Shown here: positions 3 to 40,075 of the stretch, piece by piece | Layout: each line of letters begins with the position of its first letter | Numbering within the stretch: the first letter of the stretch is position 1 | From: Nitrospirota bacterium | GTDB lineage: Bacteria > Nitrospirota > JACRHL01 | Length of the DNA stretch: 40,075 nt | NCBI GenBank assembly: GCA_029881725.1 | Contig: JAOUMB010000024.1 | Coordinates: 1 to 40,075, forward strand | Direction of reading: 5' to 3' | The notes under the pieces: generated by a model | The model's database searches: none | What the model was told of the DNA's origin: nothing | Seen by the model: the letters and a program-made list of their open reading frames with translations, nothing else | Translations under genes and position numbers: made by a program

Positions 3-340
3 GAGGACGCAGCGCAGGACGCAGCATGGGACGCAGCATGGGCCGCAGCATGGGCCGCAGCACTGGCCGCAGCAGAGGACGCAGCACGGGACGTAGCATG
101 GAACGCAGCACGGGCCGCAGCGCGGGACGCAGCATGGGACGCAGAGGACGCAGAGGACGCAGCGCGGGCCGCAGCATGGGCCGCAGCACTGGCCGCAGCA
201 GAGGACGCAGCACGGGACGTAGCATGGAACGCAGCACGGGCCGCAGCGCGGGACGCAGCACGGGCCGCAGCGCGGGACGCAGCACGGGCCGCAGCGCGGG
301 ACGCAGCATGGGACGCAGAGGACGCAGCGCGGGACGCAGA
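3..340 (+). repeat. 12-bp coding repeats with ~94-bp higher-order copies (left end)
   Basis: The segment is built of 12-bp units (GACGCAGCATGG and variants) that encode xAAW/xAAR. Two nearly identical long blocks lie at 45-138 and 171-260. The same block occurs twice at the other window end (39833-39926 and 39974-40067). Block starts are 141 bp apart at the right end, 126 bp apart here, and 141 bp apart across the proposed CAGAG joint. Confidence 0.9.
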
Positions 341-386
341 ACGCGAATGGCAGGCTGCCCAGATTCGTATGTATTTGGAGGACTGA
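3..386 (+). CDS. Alanine-rich repeat protein, C-terminal part (gene split by the window ends)
   Basis: The open frame enters from the window edge with codons starting at position 3 and stops at TGA 384-386. It encodes about 127 residues of four-residue units such as DAAW, DAAR, AAAW and AEDA, then a short non-repetitive tail (EREWQAAQIRMYLED). It appears to be the 3' half of the gene starting at 39392. Overlapping the terminal CAGAG shared by both ends joins the two frames exactly and would give about 354 residues. The tail resembles the C-terminus of the second repeat protein at 7104-7946 (DAERQWQ and a final LE). The repeats predict one long alanine-rich helix; function is unknown. The true repeat number may be wrong if the assembly collapsed copies. 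Confidence 0.8.
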   Translation, partial: EDAAQDAAWDAAWAAAWAAALAAAEDAARDVAWNAARAAARDAAWDAEDAEDAARAAAWAAALAAAEDAARDVAWNAARAAARDAARAAARDAARAAARDAAWDAEDAARDAEREWQAAQIRMYLED

Positions 387-4334: not shown

Positions 4335-4895
4335 ATGAAAACACGACAATGCAGTGCAGAACATGCGCACGAAATCTGGCGACCGGTTACTGGGTGGGAG
4401 GGCATTTACGAGGTATCCGATCTAGGTCGCGTCAAATCCGTGCCCCGTTGGATAGTGAATACCTTGGGTGTCCGCCGGAGAGTCGGCGGTAACATCCTGC
4501 GGTCATTCGAGGCCGGTTCGGGAGGATTTGGCGTACATATGGTGGCAACCACGCTCGAACGACCACAACAGTACGCCGGGCTTGGCCAGCTTGTGCTGCG
4601 TGCGTTCGTTGGTCCTCCACCGACCGAGGACAGTGGAGCCTTCCACCTGAACGGGAACCAAAGTGATAATCGCCTGGAGAACCTGTACTGGAAGCGACGC
4701 CCGTTGATAAATTCGTGCCGGTCTCGCGGGCAGGGGCATGGGTGCTCGAAGCTGACCGAGGACAAGGTGAAAATGATTCGCACTTTCGTGCCAACGCGGC
4801 CCGGAGAATTGGCGGATTTGGCAAAGCGGCTCGGAATCCATCCCGGAACGCTTTACAACATCCGCTATGGAAGAAACTGGGGGCATGTAACATGA
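4335..4895 (+). CDS. Free-standing HNH endonuclease (NUMOD4 type)
   Basis: The 186-residue product has three parts. Residues 14-50 (EIWRPVTGWEGIYEVSDLGRVKS) are a NUMOD4 DNA-binding motif. Residues about 85-117 hold the HNH_3 core, FHLNGNQSDNRLENLYW, with the conserved His and Asn present. Residues 140-183 (KLTEDKVKMIRTF and LAKRLGIHPGTLYNIRYG) form a C-terminal helix-turn-helix. Such enzymes nick DNA and spread as homing genes. AAGGAGGAACC precedes the ATG. It lies right after the tRNA gene and overlaps the next gene by ATGA. It looks intact. Confidence 0.9.
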   Translation: MKTRQCSAEHAHEIWRPVTGWEGIYEVSDLGRVKSVPRWIVNTLGVRRRVGGNILRSFEAGSGGFGVHMVATTLERPQQYAGLGQLVLRAFVGPPPTEDSGAFHLNGNQSDNRLENLYWKRRPLINSCRSRGQGHGCSKLTEDKVKMIRTFVPTRPGELADLAKRLGIHPGTLYNIRYGRNWGHVT

Positions 4896-5376: not shown

Positions 5377-6216
5377 ATGGCTGGTGAAGTGACCCCCGGC
5401 ATCTATCCCGGCATTCCCGCCGAGCAGTACCACAGCGGACCCGGTACGTCACGTTCCCAATTGGAACTTGTCCGGCAATCCCCAGCGGTGTATTGGGACA
5501 GGGTGCTCAACCCCGACAAGCCGGAGGAAAAGGAAACCGACGCCATGCGCTTCGGCAGCTTGTTCCATTCGGCCACGTTGGAACCGGACACTTTGGCAGA
5601 CTTCTACCGCGTGGCCCCTCAGGTGGACCGCCGCACCAAGGATGGAAAGGCGGCATGGGCGGACTTTGAGCGTGAATGCGAAGAAAACGGACTCACCGTC
5701 GTGTCCCAGGACGACCTTGATATGGCCAGGGCTATGGCCACGGCGGTGCGGAATCACCCTCGTGCATCCCGCATGTTGGCCGGTGGCGCACCGGAACAAA
5801 CGATTTACTGGACCGATTCGGAGACGGGGCTTCTTTGCCGTGCTCGTCCAGATTATCTCGGGGAGCAAGCGCAGTTGTGCATCCCTGACCTAAAGAGCAC
5901 AAATAGCGCCCATCCGTCTGCATTCGCCCGTTCCGTGGTCAATTTCGGCTACCACCGGCAGGAGGCGTTCTATGCCGGCGGGGTCGAGGCCGTGACCGGA
6001 GATGCGTTGCCGATGGTATTTTTGGCGGTGGAGAAGGCGCGACCATTCCAAGTGGCTCTCTACACGCTGCCGGAGGATTTTGTAGAAAAGGGCCGCCAGC
6101 AGATACGCGCCGCCCTGCGCAGATTGGCCGATTGCAAGAAAAAGGATGAGTGGCCGGGTTATCCGGAAGTGATTACCGAACTGACGATGCCCGGATGGGC
6201 GTACATGGAGGACTGA
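5377..6216 (+). CDS. RecE-like exonuclease (PD-(D/E)XK fold)
   Basis: The 279-residue product matches the catalytic C-terminal domain of RecE/exodeoxyribonuclease VIII. Visible motifs are MRFGSLFHSATLEPD with H64, the metal-site Asp in CRARPDY (D159), PDLKST with D171 and K173, and YHRQEAFY with Q195. Such enzymes degrade one strand of double-stranded DNA ends to expose 3' tails. Bet follows after 3 bases, and the two would load as a pair for annealing recombination. AAAGGAAAAACCAAT precedes the ATG. It is unlike lambda Exo in sequence but has the same role. Confidence 0.9.
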   Translation: MAGEVTPGIYPGIPAEQYHSGPGTSRSQLELVRQSPAVYWDRVLNPDKPEEKETDAMRFGSLFHSATLEPDTLADFYRVAPQVDRRTKDGKAAWADFERECEENGLTVVSQDDLDMARAMATAVRNHPRASRMLAGGAPEQTIYWTDSETGLLCRARPDYLGEQAQLCIPDLKSTNSAHPSAFARSVVNFGYHRQEAFYAGGVEAVTGDALPMVFLAVEKARPFQVALYTLPEDFVEKGRQQIRAALRRLADCKKKDEWPGYPEVITELTMPGWAYMED

Positions 6217-6219
6217 CCA

Positions 6220-7107
6220 ATGACAAACGCATCAACTACCATTTCTGCCGATCTACAGACGGCGCTCACCGAACGTGGCATTGAGCCGCACGCATGGTCT
6301 GCCCTGCAAAATCTGTATCCGGGTGCCCAGCCCGAATCCATGTTGATGGTCGTGGACTACTGCAAGGCCCGCAAGTTGGATCCACTCAAGAAGCCGGTTC
6401 ACATCGTTCCCATGTACGTGGAGGACAAAAAGACCGGTGCCAAGGGCATGCGCGACGTGGTAATGCCCGGCATCTACGAATACCGGACCACGGCCTTCCG
6501 CACGGGGGATTACGCGGGACAGGATGAACCCGTGTTCGGTCCCTCCGTTGAATTTCAGGGGATCACCGTGCCCGAATGGTGCAGGATCACGGTGTACCGC
6601 ATCATCCAGGGGGAAAAATGCGCATTCTCCAACACCGCCTTTTACCGCGAGGAATACGCGACAAGAGGCCGCAATGACGATCATCCGAATGCCATGTGGG
6701 CCAAGCGGTGTCATGGCCAACTCGCCAAGGTTGCCGAGGCTGGGGCGTTGCGCAAGGCGTTCCCGAACGAATTGGGCGGGGACATGACCGCAGAGGAAAT
6801 GACCGGGAAGATCATTGACGTGACCGGCGAGTCTTACGCCGACGATCAGAAGCCCTCCGCAGCCGCGAAATTAAACGCGGCCCTGGATTCCGGGCGGGCC
6901 AATGAAGCCACCGAACCGCAAGACCCCGGCATTACCGTGGAGGATCTCATAAGCGATGCCGAGATGTCCATTGCCATGGCGGAGACGTCGGACGATATCA
7001 AAAAGATCGGAGAGCGCATCAAGACGTTCCCGAAAGAGGCGCGAGATGCGCTGCGTAGCGCATGGAAAAAGCGGCAGGAAACCATTGCGGCGGGGGGGAA
7101 AGAATGA
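6220..7107 (+). CDS. bet: Bet/RecT-family single-strand annealing protein
   Basis: The 295-residue product shows the Bet signature. Early comes DYCKARKLDPLKKPVHIVPM (about 46-65), then DVVMPGIYEYRTTAFRTGDY (about 79-98) and WAKRCHGQLAKVAEAGALRK (about 161-180). The C-terminal 80 residues are charged and variable, as in the family. It anneals complementary single strands made by the adjacent exonuclease, allowing recombination during replication, concatemer formation and repeat exchange. This is relevant here because the genome carries several long coding repeats. It overlaps the next gene by ATGA. Confidence 0.93.
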   Translation: MTNASTTISADLQTALTERGIEPHAWSALQNLYPGAQPESMLMVVDYCKARKLDPLKKPVHIVPMYVEDKKTGAKGMRDVVMPGIYEYRTTAFRTGDYAGQDEPVFGPSVEFQGITVPEWCRITVYRIIQGEKCAFSNTAFYREEYATRGRNDDHPNAMWAKRCHGQLAKVAEAGALRKAFPNELGGDMTAEEMTGKIIDVTGESYADDQKPSAAAKLNAALDSGRANEATEPQDPGITVEDLISDAEMSIAMAETSDDIKKIGERIKTFPKEARDALRSAWKKRQETIAAGGKE

Positions 7108-7946
7108 CCACCGAACTTGAACAACTGGCCGAGAAGGAAAAATATTACAAAGTGCTGGCGGCGAATGGTGCCGCCCCCTTCGGTCAAGGGATTTGGCACC
7201 TGCCACGGGGGGACAAGCCCGGAAAGTGGATGCCTTCTGTCAAGGGAAGGCTGAAGCCGTGCGAGAACGGCTACCACGTGGTCACCCGTGACGGGCTGAT
7301 TGATTGGCTGGGACCGGAGTTGTACGAGGTAGAGGTAAGCGGCGAGGGGGTACCCAAGGATGAGCACGTACTGGTGGTGCGGAGGACCCGGTTGATTCGG
7401 CGGCTACCGGAATGGAACGAGATCACCGCCCGGCTGTTTGCCGCCGACTGCGCCGAGCGGGTCCTGCCGGTTTTTGAGAAAAGCAATCCGGGGGACGACC
7501 GTCCGCGAAAAGCCATTGAGGCGGCACGCGCTTTCGCACAGGGAGAAATCAGCGAAGAAGATTTGGCCGCCGCCAGGGACGCCGCCAGGGACGCCGCCTG
7601 GGCCGCCGCCAGGGAGGCCGCCAGGGACGCCGCCAAGGTCGCCGCCTGGGAGGCCGCCTGGGCCGCCGCCAGGGCCGCCGCCTGGGAGGCCGCCTGGGAC
7701 GCCGCCTGGGACGCCGCCAGGGCCGCCGCCTGGGACGCCGCCTGGGACGCCACCTGGGCCGCCGCCTGGGCCGCCGCCTGGGACGCCGCCTGGGACGCCA
7801 CCAGGGCCGCCGCCTGGGACGCCACCAGGGCCGCCACCAGGGACGCCGCCTGGGACGCCACCAGGGCCGCCACCAGGGACGCCGCCTGGGACGCCGAGCG
7901 GCAATGGCAGACGCAACGCCTGTTGTCCTGTTTGGAGGGCGGCTGA
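7104..7946 (+). CDS. Alanine-rich repeat protein, paralogue of the split gene
   Basis: The 280-residue product has three parts. Residues 1-105 form a globular domain (GRLKPCENGYHVV, LYEVEVSG, VVRRTRLIRRLPEW) whose CENGYH motif recalls DUF7666-type phage domains. Residues 118-158 (VFEKSNPGDDRPRKAIEAAR, GEISEEDLAAARD) recall the Imm-5-like domain. Residues about 155-264 are four-residue repeats DAAW/DAAR/AAAW. The second and third parts and the tail (DAERQWQ) are shared with the gene split over the window ends. ATG 7104 overlaps the bet stop, which decides against an upstream start at 7062. The repeats predict a long single alanine helix. Function unknown. Confidence 0.82.
   Translation: MTTELEQLAEKEKYYKVLAANGAAPFGQGIWHLPRGDKPGKWMPSVKGRLKPCENGYHVVTRDGLIDWLGPELYEVEVSGEGVPKDEHVLVVRRTRLIRRLPEWNEITARLFAADCAERVLPVFEKSNPGDDRPRKAIEAARAFAQGEISEEDLAAARDAARDAAWAAAREAARDAAKVAAWEAAWAAARAAAWEAAWDAAWDAARAAAWDAAWDATWAAAWAAAWDAAWDATRAAAWDATRAATRDAAWDATRAATRDAAWDAERQWQTQRLLSCLEGG
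7566..7895 (+). repeat. 12-bp tandem coding repeats
   Basis: About 27 units of the type GCCGCCTGGGAC or GCCGCCAGGGAC encode the xAAW/xAAR repeats. The codons differ from those of the paralogue (GCC versus GCA/GCG), so this array was expanded independently. Such arrays can change in length by slippage or Bet-mediated annealing. Confidence 0.9.
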
Positions 7947-8149
7947 TGGCCGAGAAGGAACCCTATCGCAAGATCCACCCGCGCATCCACGCGGATGCCG
8001 CGTTCCGGGCGCTGCTGGATGGGTGGAAAACGATGACGCGCAGGCCGGTGAAGCCGCAGCCAACAGGCGATTGGAAAATTCAGTGCTTGTATCTCGATAC
8101 GCATGAGACCGCTGTTTGCCTGGTCCTCAAATTCAAGGGGGCGGGGTGA
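7946..8149 (+). CDS. Short phage protein with ASCH-like N-terminal motif
   Basis: The 67-residue product begins MAEKEPYRKIHPRIH and contains LLDGWKTMTRRPVKPQP (residues 24-40). This motif opens many phage ASCH-like proteins, which normally run to 150-200 residues. Here only about 27 residues follow before a TGATG overlap with the methyltransferase gene. It is either a short family member or a truncated one fused to a new end. It starts in TGATG overlap with the repeat-protein gene. Confidence 0.6.
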   Translation: MAEKEPYRKIHPRIHADAAFRALLDGWKTMTRRPVKPQPTGDWKIQCLYLDTHETAVCLVLKFKGAG

Positions 8150-9351
8150 TGCGATACGCCACCGTTTGTTCCGGTATTGAGGCCCCCTCAATGGCCTGGC
8201 GCCAGCTTGGCTGGGAACCGGTGTTTTTTTCCGAGATCGAACCATTCCCTTGCGGGGTGCTCGCCCATCATTACCCGGACGTGCCCAATCTGGGCGACAT
8301 GACGCAGATCGACGGGAGCGCGTGGCGGGGGAAGATCGACCTGCTGGCCGGGGGGACTCCATGCCAGTCGTTTTCCGTGGCCGGGCTGCGCCAGTCACTG
8401 GATGACGCGCGTGGCAACCTCACCCTCAAATTTGTAGAGATCTACCATGCAACAGAAGCTGTTTGGGGTCTGTGGGAAAACGTCCCCGGCGTCCTCTCCA
8501 CCCGTGACAACGCATTCGGCTGTTTCCTGGCGGGCCTTGTCGGAGCGGACATCCCCCTCGTCAGTCCACTTGAACGCGGACGGTGGCCGGGTGCGGGTAT
8601 GGTTGGCGGACCCCGGGCGCGAGCAGCTTGGCGGATTCTCGACGCTCAATATTTCGGTCTGGCCCAACGACGCCAGCGTGTGTTCGTTGTCGTCGGTTCT
8701 GGACCCGACGCCGATCCCGCAGCGGTACTTTTTGAGCCCGAAGGCGTGCGCGGGAATCCTGCGCCGCGCCGAGAAGCGGGGTCGGGAGTTGCCGCCCTCA
8801 CTGCGAGTGGCGTTGGAACATGTGGCGCAGACGACAACCAGGCCCAAAGCGGCCACCTGATTGCGGCGGATGTCGCGGCACCGCTTACCACCTCACCCCA
8901 TGCGGATAACGAGGCCCAAGAATCCCGGCTGGTAATCATGGCCCACGGCCAAGGCGGCGCGGAAATCAGTGACGATGGGACGACCCCTACCCTCACTTGC
9001 AATCACGAAGCGCCGATCGTTGTCCATACCCTGCGCGGGGAAGGTTTTGACGCCAGCGAGGCTGGCAAGCGGTGCGGCACAAACCCGAAGCCCGGCGACC
9101 CGTGCCACCCGCTAGCCGCTGGCGCGCACCCTCCGGCGGTGGCCGCGCAAATGTCCGTCCGCCGCCTGATCCCCCGTGAGTGCGAATGGTTGCAGGGCTT
9201 TCCCGGTGGCTACACGCTGGTTCCATACCGGAACAAACCGGCTGATCGATGCCCGGACGGCCCGCGCTACAAGGCGCTGGGAAACAGTTGGGCTGTGCCA
9301 TGCGGCCGGTGGATTGGGGAACGGATTGCAATGGTTGAGGGGGTGCTATGA
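8149..9351 (+). CDS. dcm: C5-cytosine DNA methyltransferase
   Basis: The 400-residue product has the motifs of the family in order. Motif I is TVCSGIEAPSMAW (residues 5-17), motif IV GGTPCQSFS with catalytic C72, motif VI LWENVPG (E110), and motif VIII QRRQRVFVV. A target-recognition region of about 150 residues follows, then motif IX (RRLIPRECEWLQGFP) and motif X (YKALGNSWAVP). It methylates a cytosine in a short, unpredicted site, probably to protect phage DNA from host restriction. No partner endonuclease gene is present. ATG 8149 overlaps the previous stop; an in-frame start at 8116 would precede motif I without need. Confidence 0.94.
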   Translation: MRYATVCSGIEAPSMAWRQLGWEPVFFSEIEPFPCGVLAHHYPDVPNLGDMTQIDGSAWRGKIDLLAGGTPCQSFSVAGLRQSLDDARGNLTLKFVEIYHATEAVWGLWENVPGVLSTRDNAFGCFLAGLVGADIPLVSPLERGRWPGAGMVGGPRARAAWRILDAQYFGLAQRRQRVFVVVGSGPDADPAAVLFEPEGVRGNPAPRREAGSGVAALTASGVGTCGADDNQAQSGHLIAADVAAPLTTSPHADNEAQESRLVIMAHGQGGAEISDDGTTPTLTCNHEAPIVVHTLRGEGFDASEAGKRCGTNPKPGDPCHPLAAGAHPPAVAAQMSVRRLIPRECEWLQGFPGGYTLVPYRNKPADRCPDGPRYKALGNSWAVPCGRWIGERIAMVEGVL

Positions 9352-36149: not shown

Positions 36150-36866
36150 CTAAAAGAAGCAAGGCCCTCCAGTAATCCGCTCACTGGCTAATTTGAAATA
36201 GTTAACATCCATCTCGATACCGATGAACGATCGCCCGGTATTGTGCGCCGCCACCCCTGTCGTGCCTGACCCCATAGTGAAGTCGAGGACGGTTTCACCT
36301 TCGTTGGTGTAGGTGCGGATTAGATATTCCATCAGTGTGATCGGCTTCTGTGTTGGGTGGAGACTCGTTTCCGCTTTGAATTTCTGAATTGATCGCGGGT
36401 AGTTTGTGTGGGTTTGGGTGTAGGGCTTACGGACACAGTGCCCCAAATTGTTCTTCTCAGGTTTATGAACTCGCCGATCTGAAGCCGGGATTTCTACCAG
36501 ATTTTGCGGGTGATACATTGTGTGATGTGCGTTAAATACAACGATGTCTTCGTGCATTTTCAAAGGTTGTTTTTTAGCCAACTGTGGGTTGCTTGGCCGA
36601 CCCTTCTCCCACACCCAGCAATACTTAAACATTGCCATATTCGACGCGATCAGCGTGGTCGTGAACGGCTGGCTTGCCGTCATTACGATCGCGCCATTCG
36701 GTTTTATCACCCGTCGCAACTGCTCCCACATCGGGGCCAGGGGTACCACAGCATCCCACTTACACGCCGTGGTTCCGTATGGCGGATCGGTCAACACCAT
36801 ATCCACTGACCCCGATTCGATCTCTTTCATCCGCTCGAGACAGTCGCCAAGCATCAAGTTAATCAT
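36150..36866 (-). CDS. Beta-class DNA methyltransferase (N6-adenine or N4-cytosine)
   Basis: The 238-residue product has the catalytic motif DPPYG (residues 27-31) early and the AdoMet motif FTMGSGTTG (about 197-205) late, which is the beta-class order. HPTQKPITLMEYLI precedes motif I. The DPPY sequence allows either adenine or N4-cytosine methylation. The target-recognition part (about 90-170) is short. It starts in TGATG overlap with the preceding gene and is flanked by a duplicated fragment of that gene, as expected of a recently gained cassette. Likely role: masking restriction sites. Confidence 0.92.
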   Translation of the reverse strand: MINLMLGDCLERMKEIESGSVDMVLTDPPYGTTACKWDAVVPLAPMWEQLRRVIKPNGAIVMTASQPFTTTLIASNMAMFKYCWVWEKGRPSNPQLAKKQPLKMHEDIVVFNAHHTMYHPQNLVEIPASDRRVHKPEKNNLGHCVRKPYTQTHTNYPRSIQKFKAETSLHPTQKPITLMEYLIRTYTNEGETVLDFTMGSGTTGVAAHNTGRSFIGIEMDVNYFKLASERITGGPCFF

Positions 36867-38188: not shown

Positions 38189-38322
38189 ACGAAGTCATCC
38201 GCCTGCACGCTCTATACCTCGCGAGCGATGGGGCGGAAGGTGAACGGGCGAACCTGTCTGGTGCGGACCTGCGCCGGGCGGACCTGTTCGATGCGGACCT
38301 GTCCGGGGCAATAAGGAGCTAA
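38170..38322 (+). CDS. Short pentapeptide-repeat protein, copy 1
   Basis: The 50-residue product begins with a helical cap, [20 protein letters not shown], shared almost exactly with the next two genes. About five pentapeptides follow (ANLSG, ADLRR, ADLFD, ADLSG), and it ends AIRS. It is too short for a stable dimeric beta-helix by itself, so it may be a shortened copy or pair with the 195-residue version. AAAAGGAGACCAGACC precedes the ATG. Its last codons (ATAAGGAGC) double as ribosome site for the next gene. Confidence 0.7.
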   Translation: MDQTKLNEVIRLHALYLASDGAEGERANLSGADLRRADLFDADLSGAIRS

Positions 38323-38327
38323 CCCCC

Positions 38328-38915
38328 ATGGACCTGAATGAGCTAAATGAAGTCATCCGCCTGCATGCCCTTTACCTTGCGAGCGATGGGGCGGAAGGTA
38401 AGCGGGCCGACCTGTCTGGTGCGAACCTGTCTGGTGCGAACCTGTCTGGTGCGAACCTGACCGAAGCGGACCTGCGCGGTGCGAACCTGACCGGTGCCGA
38501 CCTGTCCGGTGCCGACCTGTCCGGTGCGTACCTGTCTGGTGCGTACCTGTCTGGTGCGTACCTGTCTGGTGCGTACCTGTCTGGTGTGTACCTGTCCGAT
38601 GCGAACCTGCGCCGCGCGAACCTACGATGGGCCGACCTGTCTGGTGTGGACCTGACCGGTGCGAACCTGCGCCGCGCGAACCTACGATGGACCGACCTGT
38701 CTGATGCCGACCTGTCTGATGCCGACCTGTCTGATGCGGACCTGCGCCGGGCGAACCTGACCAAAGCCGACCTGTCTGATGCGAACCTGACCGAAGCGGA
38801 CCTGCGCCGGGCGAACCTGCGCGGTGCGAACCTGTCTGGTGCGAACCTGTCTGGCGCGTACCTGACCGATGCGGACCTGACCGATGCGGACCTGACCGGT
38901 GCAGTAAGGAGCTAA
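38328..38915 (+). CDS. Pentapeptide-repeat protein, copy 2 (full length)
   Basis: The 195-residue product has the same cap ([20 protein letters not shown]), then about 33 uninterrupted A(D/N/Y)LxG/R pentapeptides and the ending AVRS. The repeats form a right-handed square beta-helix. Known members such as Qnr and MfpA mimic DNA and bind gyrase, but most phage members have no known role. The DNA contains runs of identical 15-bp units (GGTGCGTACCTGTCT four times near 38520-38590), so copy number is probably unstable. Confidence 0.88.
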
Positions 38916-38919
38916 CCCA

Positions 38920-39117
38920 ATGGACCAAAACGAGCTAAACGAAGTCGTCCGCCTACATGCCCTTTACCTTGCGAGCGATGGGGCGGAAGGTGAACGGGCG
39001 AACCTGCGCTGGGCCGACCTGTCTGATGCCGACCTGTCTGATGCGGACCTGGCCGGCGCGAACCTACGCGGCGCGTGCCTGCGCGGTGCGAACCTGACCG
39101 ATGAACACAGAACTTAA
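38920..39117 (+). CDS. Short pentapeptide-repeat protein, copy 3
   Basis: The 65-residue product again begins [20 protein letters not shown] and has about eight pentapeptides ([25 protein letters not shown]), then leaves the pattern as LTDEHRT. The ribosome site lies in the last codons of copy 2 (GTAAGGAGC). It looks like a tandem duplicate cut short. Confidence 0.75.
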
Positions 39118-39391: not shown

Positions 39392-40075
39392 ATGAAACCG
39401 TACGAACCGACTCCGCCGACCAAACAGTATCACCTAACCACAACCCTGAGGCGGCTGCGCGAGCACCGTGCTTGCTCGGAGGGATATACCAAATTAACCG
39501 CGCACCTCGGACCCGAGTGGCCGGATGACAGGTCGATTAATCTTCTGACCATCCTCGAATCAAACGGCGTTGAGGATTGTCTGTGGTCCTTCCGGGCCGC
39601 TATTGAGGAGGCTGCACAGGTTACACGTTTAATTGCTGCGGATCTTGCAGAACACGTTCTGCATGTTTTCGAGGGTAAACATCCGGCAGATCAGCGCCCA
39701 CGGATGGCTATTGATGTGGCGCGAGCCTATGTACGTGGTGAGGCCACAGAAGAAGAAATGGCCGCAGCGCGGGACGCAGCATGGGCCGCAGAGGACGCAG
39801 CGCGGGACGCAGCATGGGACGCAGCATGGGCCGCAGCATGGGCCGCAGCACTGGCCGCAGCAGAGGACGCAGCACGGGACGTAGCATGGAACGCAGCACG
39901 GGCCGCAGCGCGGGACGCAGCATGGGCCGCAGAGGACGCAGCGCGGGACGCAGCAGGGGACGCAGCATGGGCCGCAGCATGGGCCGCAGCACTGGCCGCA
40001 GCAGAGGACGCAGCACGGGACGTAGCATGGAACGCAGCACGGGCCGCAGCGCGGGACGCAGCATGGGACGCAGAG
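39392..40075 (+). CDS. Alanine-rich repeat protein, N-terminal part (continues at window start)
   Basis: The frame is open to the window end (228 codons). Residues 1-75 (HLTTTLRRLREHRACSEGYT, LESNGVEDCLWSFRAA) form a helical domain. Residues about 92-130 (HVFEGKHPADQRPRMAIDVA, ARAYVRGEATEEEMAAARD) match the Imm-5-like lead-in of the paralogue at 7104. Then four-residue repeats continue to the edge. AAAGGAGACTGACCG precedes the ATG. Joining by the 5-bp terminal overlap gives an intact protein of about 354 residues. It could act as a long spacer helix or scaffold; function unknown. Confidence 0.82.
   Translation, partial: MKPYEPTPPTKQYHLTTTLRRLREHRACSEGYTKLTAHLGPEWPDDRSINLLTILESNGVEDCLWSFRAAIEEAAQVTRLIAADLAEHVLHVFEGKHPADQRPRMAIDVARAYVRGEATEEEMAAARDAAWAAEDAARDAAWDAAWAAAWAAALAAAEDAARDVAWNAARAAARDAAWAAEDAARDAAGDAAWAAAWAAALAAAEDAARDVAWNAARAAARDAAWDAE
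39768..40075 (+). repeat. 12-bp coding repeats with ~94-bp higher-order copies (right end)
   Basis: Two identical 94-bp blocks lie at 39833-39926 and 39974-40067, 141 bp apart. The same 94 bases occur at 45-138. The repeats encode xAAW/xAAR/xAED units. Confidence 0.9.

Follow-up and report, generated by a model that had tools for sequence, protein, structure and literature searches.

The closest described relatives of the two phage genes reported here, which we call A and B, are Imm5 (PF14423) and Imm5_like (PF21805). Imm5 is a mostly α-helical family of predicted immunity proteins, and polyimmunity loci usually come without linked toxins (PMC3482391). Genes A and B share with these families a lead-in motif, its position in the profile and a mostly α-helical make-up. 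They differ in that no linked toxin was found, their second half is a minisatellite of four-residue units (tetrads) and an extra N-terminal domain is fused in front. In gene A, that extra domain has the fold of DUF7666 (PF24703) and of the C-terminal domain of T4 RIIB, with the motif C-x2-G-x-H and a profile alignment running the length of the domain, but the N-terminal part of RIIB (HTH-like in T4) is missing. TAL effector repeats are, like those of PRDM9, homogenized coding repeats with diversified specificity codons. In the zinc-finger minisatellite of PRDM9, diversity is mostly nonsynonymous change at the DNA-binding codons (PMC3890296). Homogenized coding repeats, diversity at a few specificity codons and a variable copy number (PMC3890296) recur in the phage arrays, the signature being present in 70 of 70; the phage unit, however, is a nonhomologous helical one of four residues, and the likeness lies in the signature and implies neither common descent nor a shared ligand. 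Diversity-generating retroelements likewise target defined bases in a phage protein.

Two genes on one phage contig

The window, meaning the whole 40,075-bp stretch analyzed, is IMG/VR record 3300022204_000008, and the same DNA is a contig (C47) of a metagenome-assembled genome. With integrase, portal and terminase genes all present, the contig most likely represents a temperate phage. Its ends share a single overlap of five bases (CAGAG), and a circular contig is plausible because collapsing that overlap restores the frame of gene B. Gene A (7104..7946, + strand, 280 aa) encodes a DUF7666/RIIB-C-like N-terminal domain, an Imm5-like core, a tetrad array and a DAER-WQ tail. Its ATG overlaps, as ATGA, the stop codon of a RecT annealing protein gene (6220..7107, +), which is preceded by a RecE-like exonuclease VIII gene (5377..6216, +); both identities were confirmed. 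Gene B is split across the contig ends. The 5' part (39392..40075, +, 228 aa), with a small helical N-terminal domain, an Imm5-like core and the start of an array, runs off the contig, and the 3' part (3..386, +, frame 3) supplies more array and a DAEREWQ tail. Upstream of gene B are pentapeptide-repeat genes (38245..39102, +).

A sequence-only reading of this DNA had coupled gene A to the RecE/Bet pair and placed gene B after pentapeptide genes. Both statements describe the window correctly, but neither arrangement is conserved among relatives, where pentapeptide genes occur in only 5 of 50 contigs and integrase genes in 11 of 50. Nor did a conserved partner gene emerge, no family being found in more than 2 of 104 neighbors; several neighbors were replication or recombination genes. 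The window also has two DNA methyltransferase genes, one C5-type (8116-9351, near gene A) and the other type II-like (36150-36866, near gene B), and an HNH endonuclease gene at 4335-4895. PADLOC gave no match for gene A or gene B.

The two whole proteins match PF21805 at 43.7 (A) and 40.5 bits (B), against a curated cut-off of 25. The same sequence-only reading had regarded them as paralogs with a common lead-in, array and DAER-WQ tail behind unrelated N-terminal domains, and had proposed a profile search with the lead-in by itself. That search found Imm5_like twice, at 51 bits for the lead-in of gene A (7425..7574, +; E 1.8e-13) and 41.3 bits for that of gene B (39626..39772, +; E 1.7e-10). 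We regard the common lead-in, on the strength of these sequence matches, as homology and not alanine composition, because each lead-in alone matches PF21805 and the array alone matches no profile. Gene A also clears the cut-off of Imm5 itself (25.8 versus 25 bits). The paralogy and the unrelated N-terminal domains thus stand, and the Imm5_like core, the DUF7666/RIIB-like domain and the two-base diversity pattern described below go beyond that reading. Solved structures offered no convincing sequence match, and Foldseek matched none of them at E below 0.2; the structural match to SsdAI, an immunity protein (7jtu_B; prob 0.60 over 54 columns), was rejected as too weak.

The N-terminal β domain of gene A (7140..7418, +; residues 13-105) belongs to the DUF7666/T4 RIIB C-terminal superfamily, with both a shared fold and a collinear profile. 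Foldseek against BFVD matched it to viral DUF7666 proteins with prob 1.00, to a RIIB at 0.99 and to several RIIB proteins in all. The corresponding domain of a relative, L022, passes the PF24703 cut-off (36.3 bits versus 27, E 8.3e-9), and the gene A domain aligns to it at E 5e-12; the gene A protein itself falls below that cut-off, with no PF24703 match reported. Its profile is collinear with residues 219-315 of T4 rIIB (L098), with an hhalign score of 34.7; the best of 60 column shuffles scored 18.1 and reversed profiles about 11. That C-terminal stretch is the one part of RIIB that aligns, and gene A does not have the complete RIIB architecture. The N-terminal domain of gene B is short and helical in a weak model, and its type also occurs in phages AF, Bcep176, PPpW-3 and P26059A. 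A fold search with this model, which is too poor for naming the domain, matched nothing beyond phage proteins of its own kind.

A 12-bp array and its two variable bases

The array of gene A (7566..7895, +) has 27 units of 12 bp, GMC-GCC-GCC-WGG, which translate as [D/A]AA[W/R], and is followed by a conserved tail, ERQWQTQRLLSCLEGG (7896..7943, +), ending DAERQWQ. That of gene B (39760..40075, +) is made of GCA-type units, contains an internal 141-bp duplication and is cut by the contig end. The repeat pattern matches the window 64 times and its shuffled sequence not once. All 59 alanine codons in the gene A array are GCC, and those in gene B are mostly GCA, against a phage background of 38% GCC and 16% GCA, which agrees with the earlier suggestion, made from codon usage, that the two arrays expanded separately. 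A CCWGG (Dcm-type) site recurs in nearly every unit of array A (7578-7889); these sites are probably incidental, because array B has none. The array had also been called helical, and AlphaFold2 concurs, predicting for gene A not disorder but two long array helices (residues 151-211 and 216-277) after a confident β domain (residues 14-100) and two core helices. In this model, built from a modest alignment, mean pLDDT is 86 and drops to about 52 at the turn. The two array helices may pack as a hairpin.

What sets these arrays apart is where they vary. Two adjacent codons each carry one variable base: base 2 of the codon we call x0 (GMY, Asp or Ala) and base 1 of the codon we call x3 (NGG, Trp, Arg or Gly). 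With the relevant bases left free and five perfect units required per locus, a scan for the DNA pattern yielded at least 120 stretches from viral contigs. In the host phylum, the pattern occurred in just 3 of 396 genomes, including the one that the window comes from; a control with the reversed pattern did not come out clean, since DAAG/AAAG-type arrays of the same class, in another register, made up most of its 25 loci. Among the 70 arrays with at least eight units, mean within-array diversity was 0.50 and 0.56 at the two x sites and 0.02-0.04 at synonymous sites. The x sites were the more diverse in all 70 (p 3.6e-13, an optimistic value since arrays can share ancestry, yet third bases reset between arrays). 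A separate set of 23 arrays, chosen by protein homology, gave 0.51 at x0 base 2 and 0.59 at x3 base 1, with the remaining positions at 0.05-0.10; third bases in this set were homogeneous within arrays and different between them (0.52-0.76). Base 2 of x0 was almost exclusively A or C. Either selection or a targeted mutator must keep the x sites variable, because neutral concerted evolution should homogenize x and synonymous sites alike.

Some 80 viral loci, on about 80 contigs, share the core and, a few exceptions aside, the array, which ranges from 17 to 126 residues in these metagenome assemblies, whose virus contigs may be incomplete. In 17 of the 80 the contig ends at the array gene; such frequent contig ends inside array genes suggest that short-read assembly breaks at the repeats. 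The window has two copies, and at least two also occur on the contig of L039 and, it seems, in L051's phage and in that of L059/L225. Two relatives from bacterial assemblies, L094 and L097, have similar heads and a nonrepetitive middle, and because of them the array looks like a derived state. Some relatives are nonrepetitive or carry Tyr/Ser arrays, so the array is not required for membership of the family.

Close pairs give a view of the turnover itself. L059 and L060/L061 come from phages about 99% identical, with arrays 33 bp apart. L044 and L045 come from otherwise unrelated phages that share the array gene (765 bp at 91.5%) and one 55-bp match only. Outside their arrays, pS is about 0.2 and pN about 0.04, which is purifying selection; inside, nonsynonymous differences (21) far outnumber synonymous ones (2), and almost all the changes lie at unit positions 0 and 3. 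The heads of L224 and L225 are 99% identical, and 12 of 18 x sites differ. The array of L225 (IMGVR 3300008110_002927) is also read in another frame (LPQGMPQG), through a frameshift or an assembly error.

The array is not tied to Imm5-like proteins. Seventy-two heads were long enough to compare and fell into ten sequence clusters, with 30 Imm5-like members, 21 of a MALDWLIRVHTPAWL type, then 6, 6 and 4, and five singletons; tails differ as well. Going by this clustering, the array is a module behind at least ten unrelated heads, because ten unrelated head clusters carry the same array, and the window genes are one instance of it. Seven representative non-Imm5 heads matched no Pfam family. The second large head family (MALDWLIRVHTPAWLDLAGL..., 21 members including L245, L253, L259 and L261) has the same arrays and no Pfam match, and one member searched against 50,697 phage records found no match. 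A single 28.6-kb phage contig, L307 (IMGVR 3300045580_000204), holds four genes of this kind; their short heads (TAWADLPNATHIDWVLASLKSDPQKW) are related and their arrays differ. In the literature searched, which included few subscription-journal papers, AAWDAA-type sequences were not printed as a protein motif; the lone text match was a QTL-mapping paper.

A proposed changing surface and its competitors

Our preferred explanation, which we put forward tentatively as quite possible though short of probable, is a coding minisatellite that is mobile, evolves under diversifying selection with a PRDM9-like signature and probably forms a variable binding surface on phage accessory, Imm5-like proteins. 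Genes A and B would then be phage accessory genes in three parts: a variable N-terminal module, a helical Imm5-like core and, at the C terminus, a helix array for which a 12-bp minisatellite codes. On this reading, the array may fold as a long helical hairpin in which Ala-Ala dyads pack the helices together and the x3-x0 di-residues point outward. Selection would keep altering this surface because the bound partner also changes, and that partner would most likely be a host or rival-phage protein in a setting of phage conflict. The Imm5-like core would fit a role in immunity or counter-defense without a linked toxin. Some points pull the other way: Imm5_like is itself a predicted family of immunity proteins, neighboring genes offer no recurrent family and selection on charge or solubility could contribute.

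The data favor a changing surface over a fixed binding face and over a balanced stalk, because tryptophan is unclustered, the order of units is random, their composition is overdispersed and charge balance is weak. The stalk is the strongest competitor, if on the unlikely side. Here, the array would be a mere helical spacer subject to ordinary minisatellite turnover, with uniform arrays (all Trp or all charged) lost as insoluble or misfolded, so that a mixture of residues would persist with no part in recognition. Net charge is indeed near zero in most arrays, with a weak correlation between positive and negative residues (rho 0.37), and the span of array lengths and the existence of nonrepetitive relatives suit a spacer too. 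A tight balance, however, predicts the opposite of what the x sites do. Their states follow one another at random, their composition is overdispersed and runs are not suppressed, all of which argues against tight balance of composition and, with no positive autocorrelation at lags 1-6, against block copying of polymorphic units. Even between the close relatives L044 and L045, the number of Asp in 70 residues changes from 3 to 9.

Improbable, in our judgment, is the view that the repeat is selfish and neutral, a coding sequence that phage genes tolerate at their ends. Such a repeat would break assemblies, alter its length and join many heads, as this one does, and a frame-shifted array exists (L225). 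It should also be equally diverse at x and synonymous sites, but in all 70 arrays the x sites are the more diverse, by a mean factor above ten. We give slightly less credence still to the sequence-only proposal of a regular tryptophan face for binding or self-assembly. Tryptophan does recur at one slot of the four-residue unit, but it shows no clustering on a side of the helix (27 arrays, permutation test, Fisher p 0.43), and in relatives the slot is also filled by Arg, Gly, Tyr, Ser, Met or Lys. The weakest candidate is a targeted mutator that rewrites one base in each of two codons, as diversity-generating retroelements do: the changes do concentrate on two defined bases, and the strings they produce look random, but an RVT_1 reverse transcriptase occurs in 0 of 100 array contigs (which may be incomplete), the window has no template repeat, its pattern matches being the two coding arrays only, and the base spectrum is wrong, x0 base 2 being nearly always A or C and not any base.

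Implications for phage biology

Returning to the changing surface, there is a bolder form of it, which we consider rather unlikely. The [D/A]AA[W/R/G] array would be a general phage recognition module, with one variable di-residue per four-residue repeat, swapped between unrelated heads, in which the order of the di-residues specifies the target during phage-host or phage-phage conflict, much as a code, in parallel with zinc-finger or TAL arrays. Without strong selection for diversity, it would be difficult to account for variation limited to two amino acid-changing bases in nearly every array, behind many unrelated heads. The finding points to many phage proteins, as yet unnamed as a group, that present a variable surface, and the named isolates among the carriers are Pseudomonas phages AF and PPpW-3 and Curvibacter phage P26059A. 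Gene A, for its part, links a phage Imm5-like gene to the RIIB C-terminal domain and may provide a handle on the function of RIIB.
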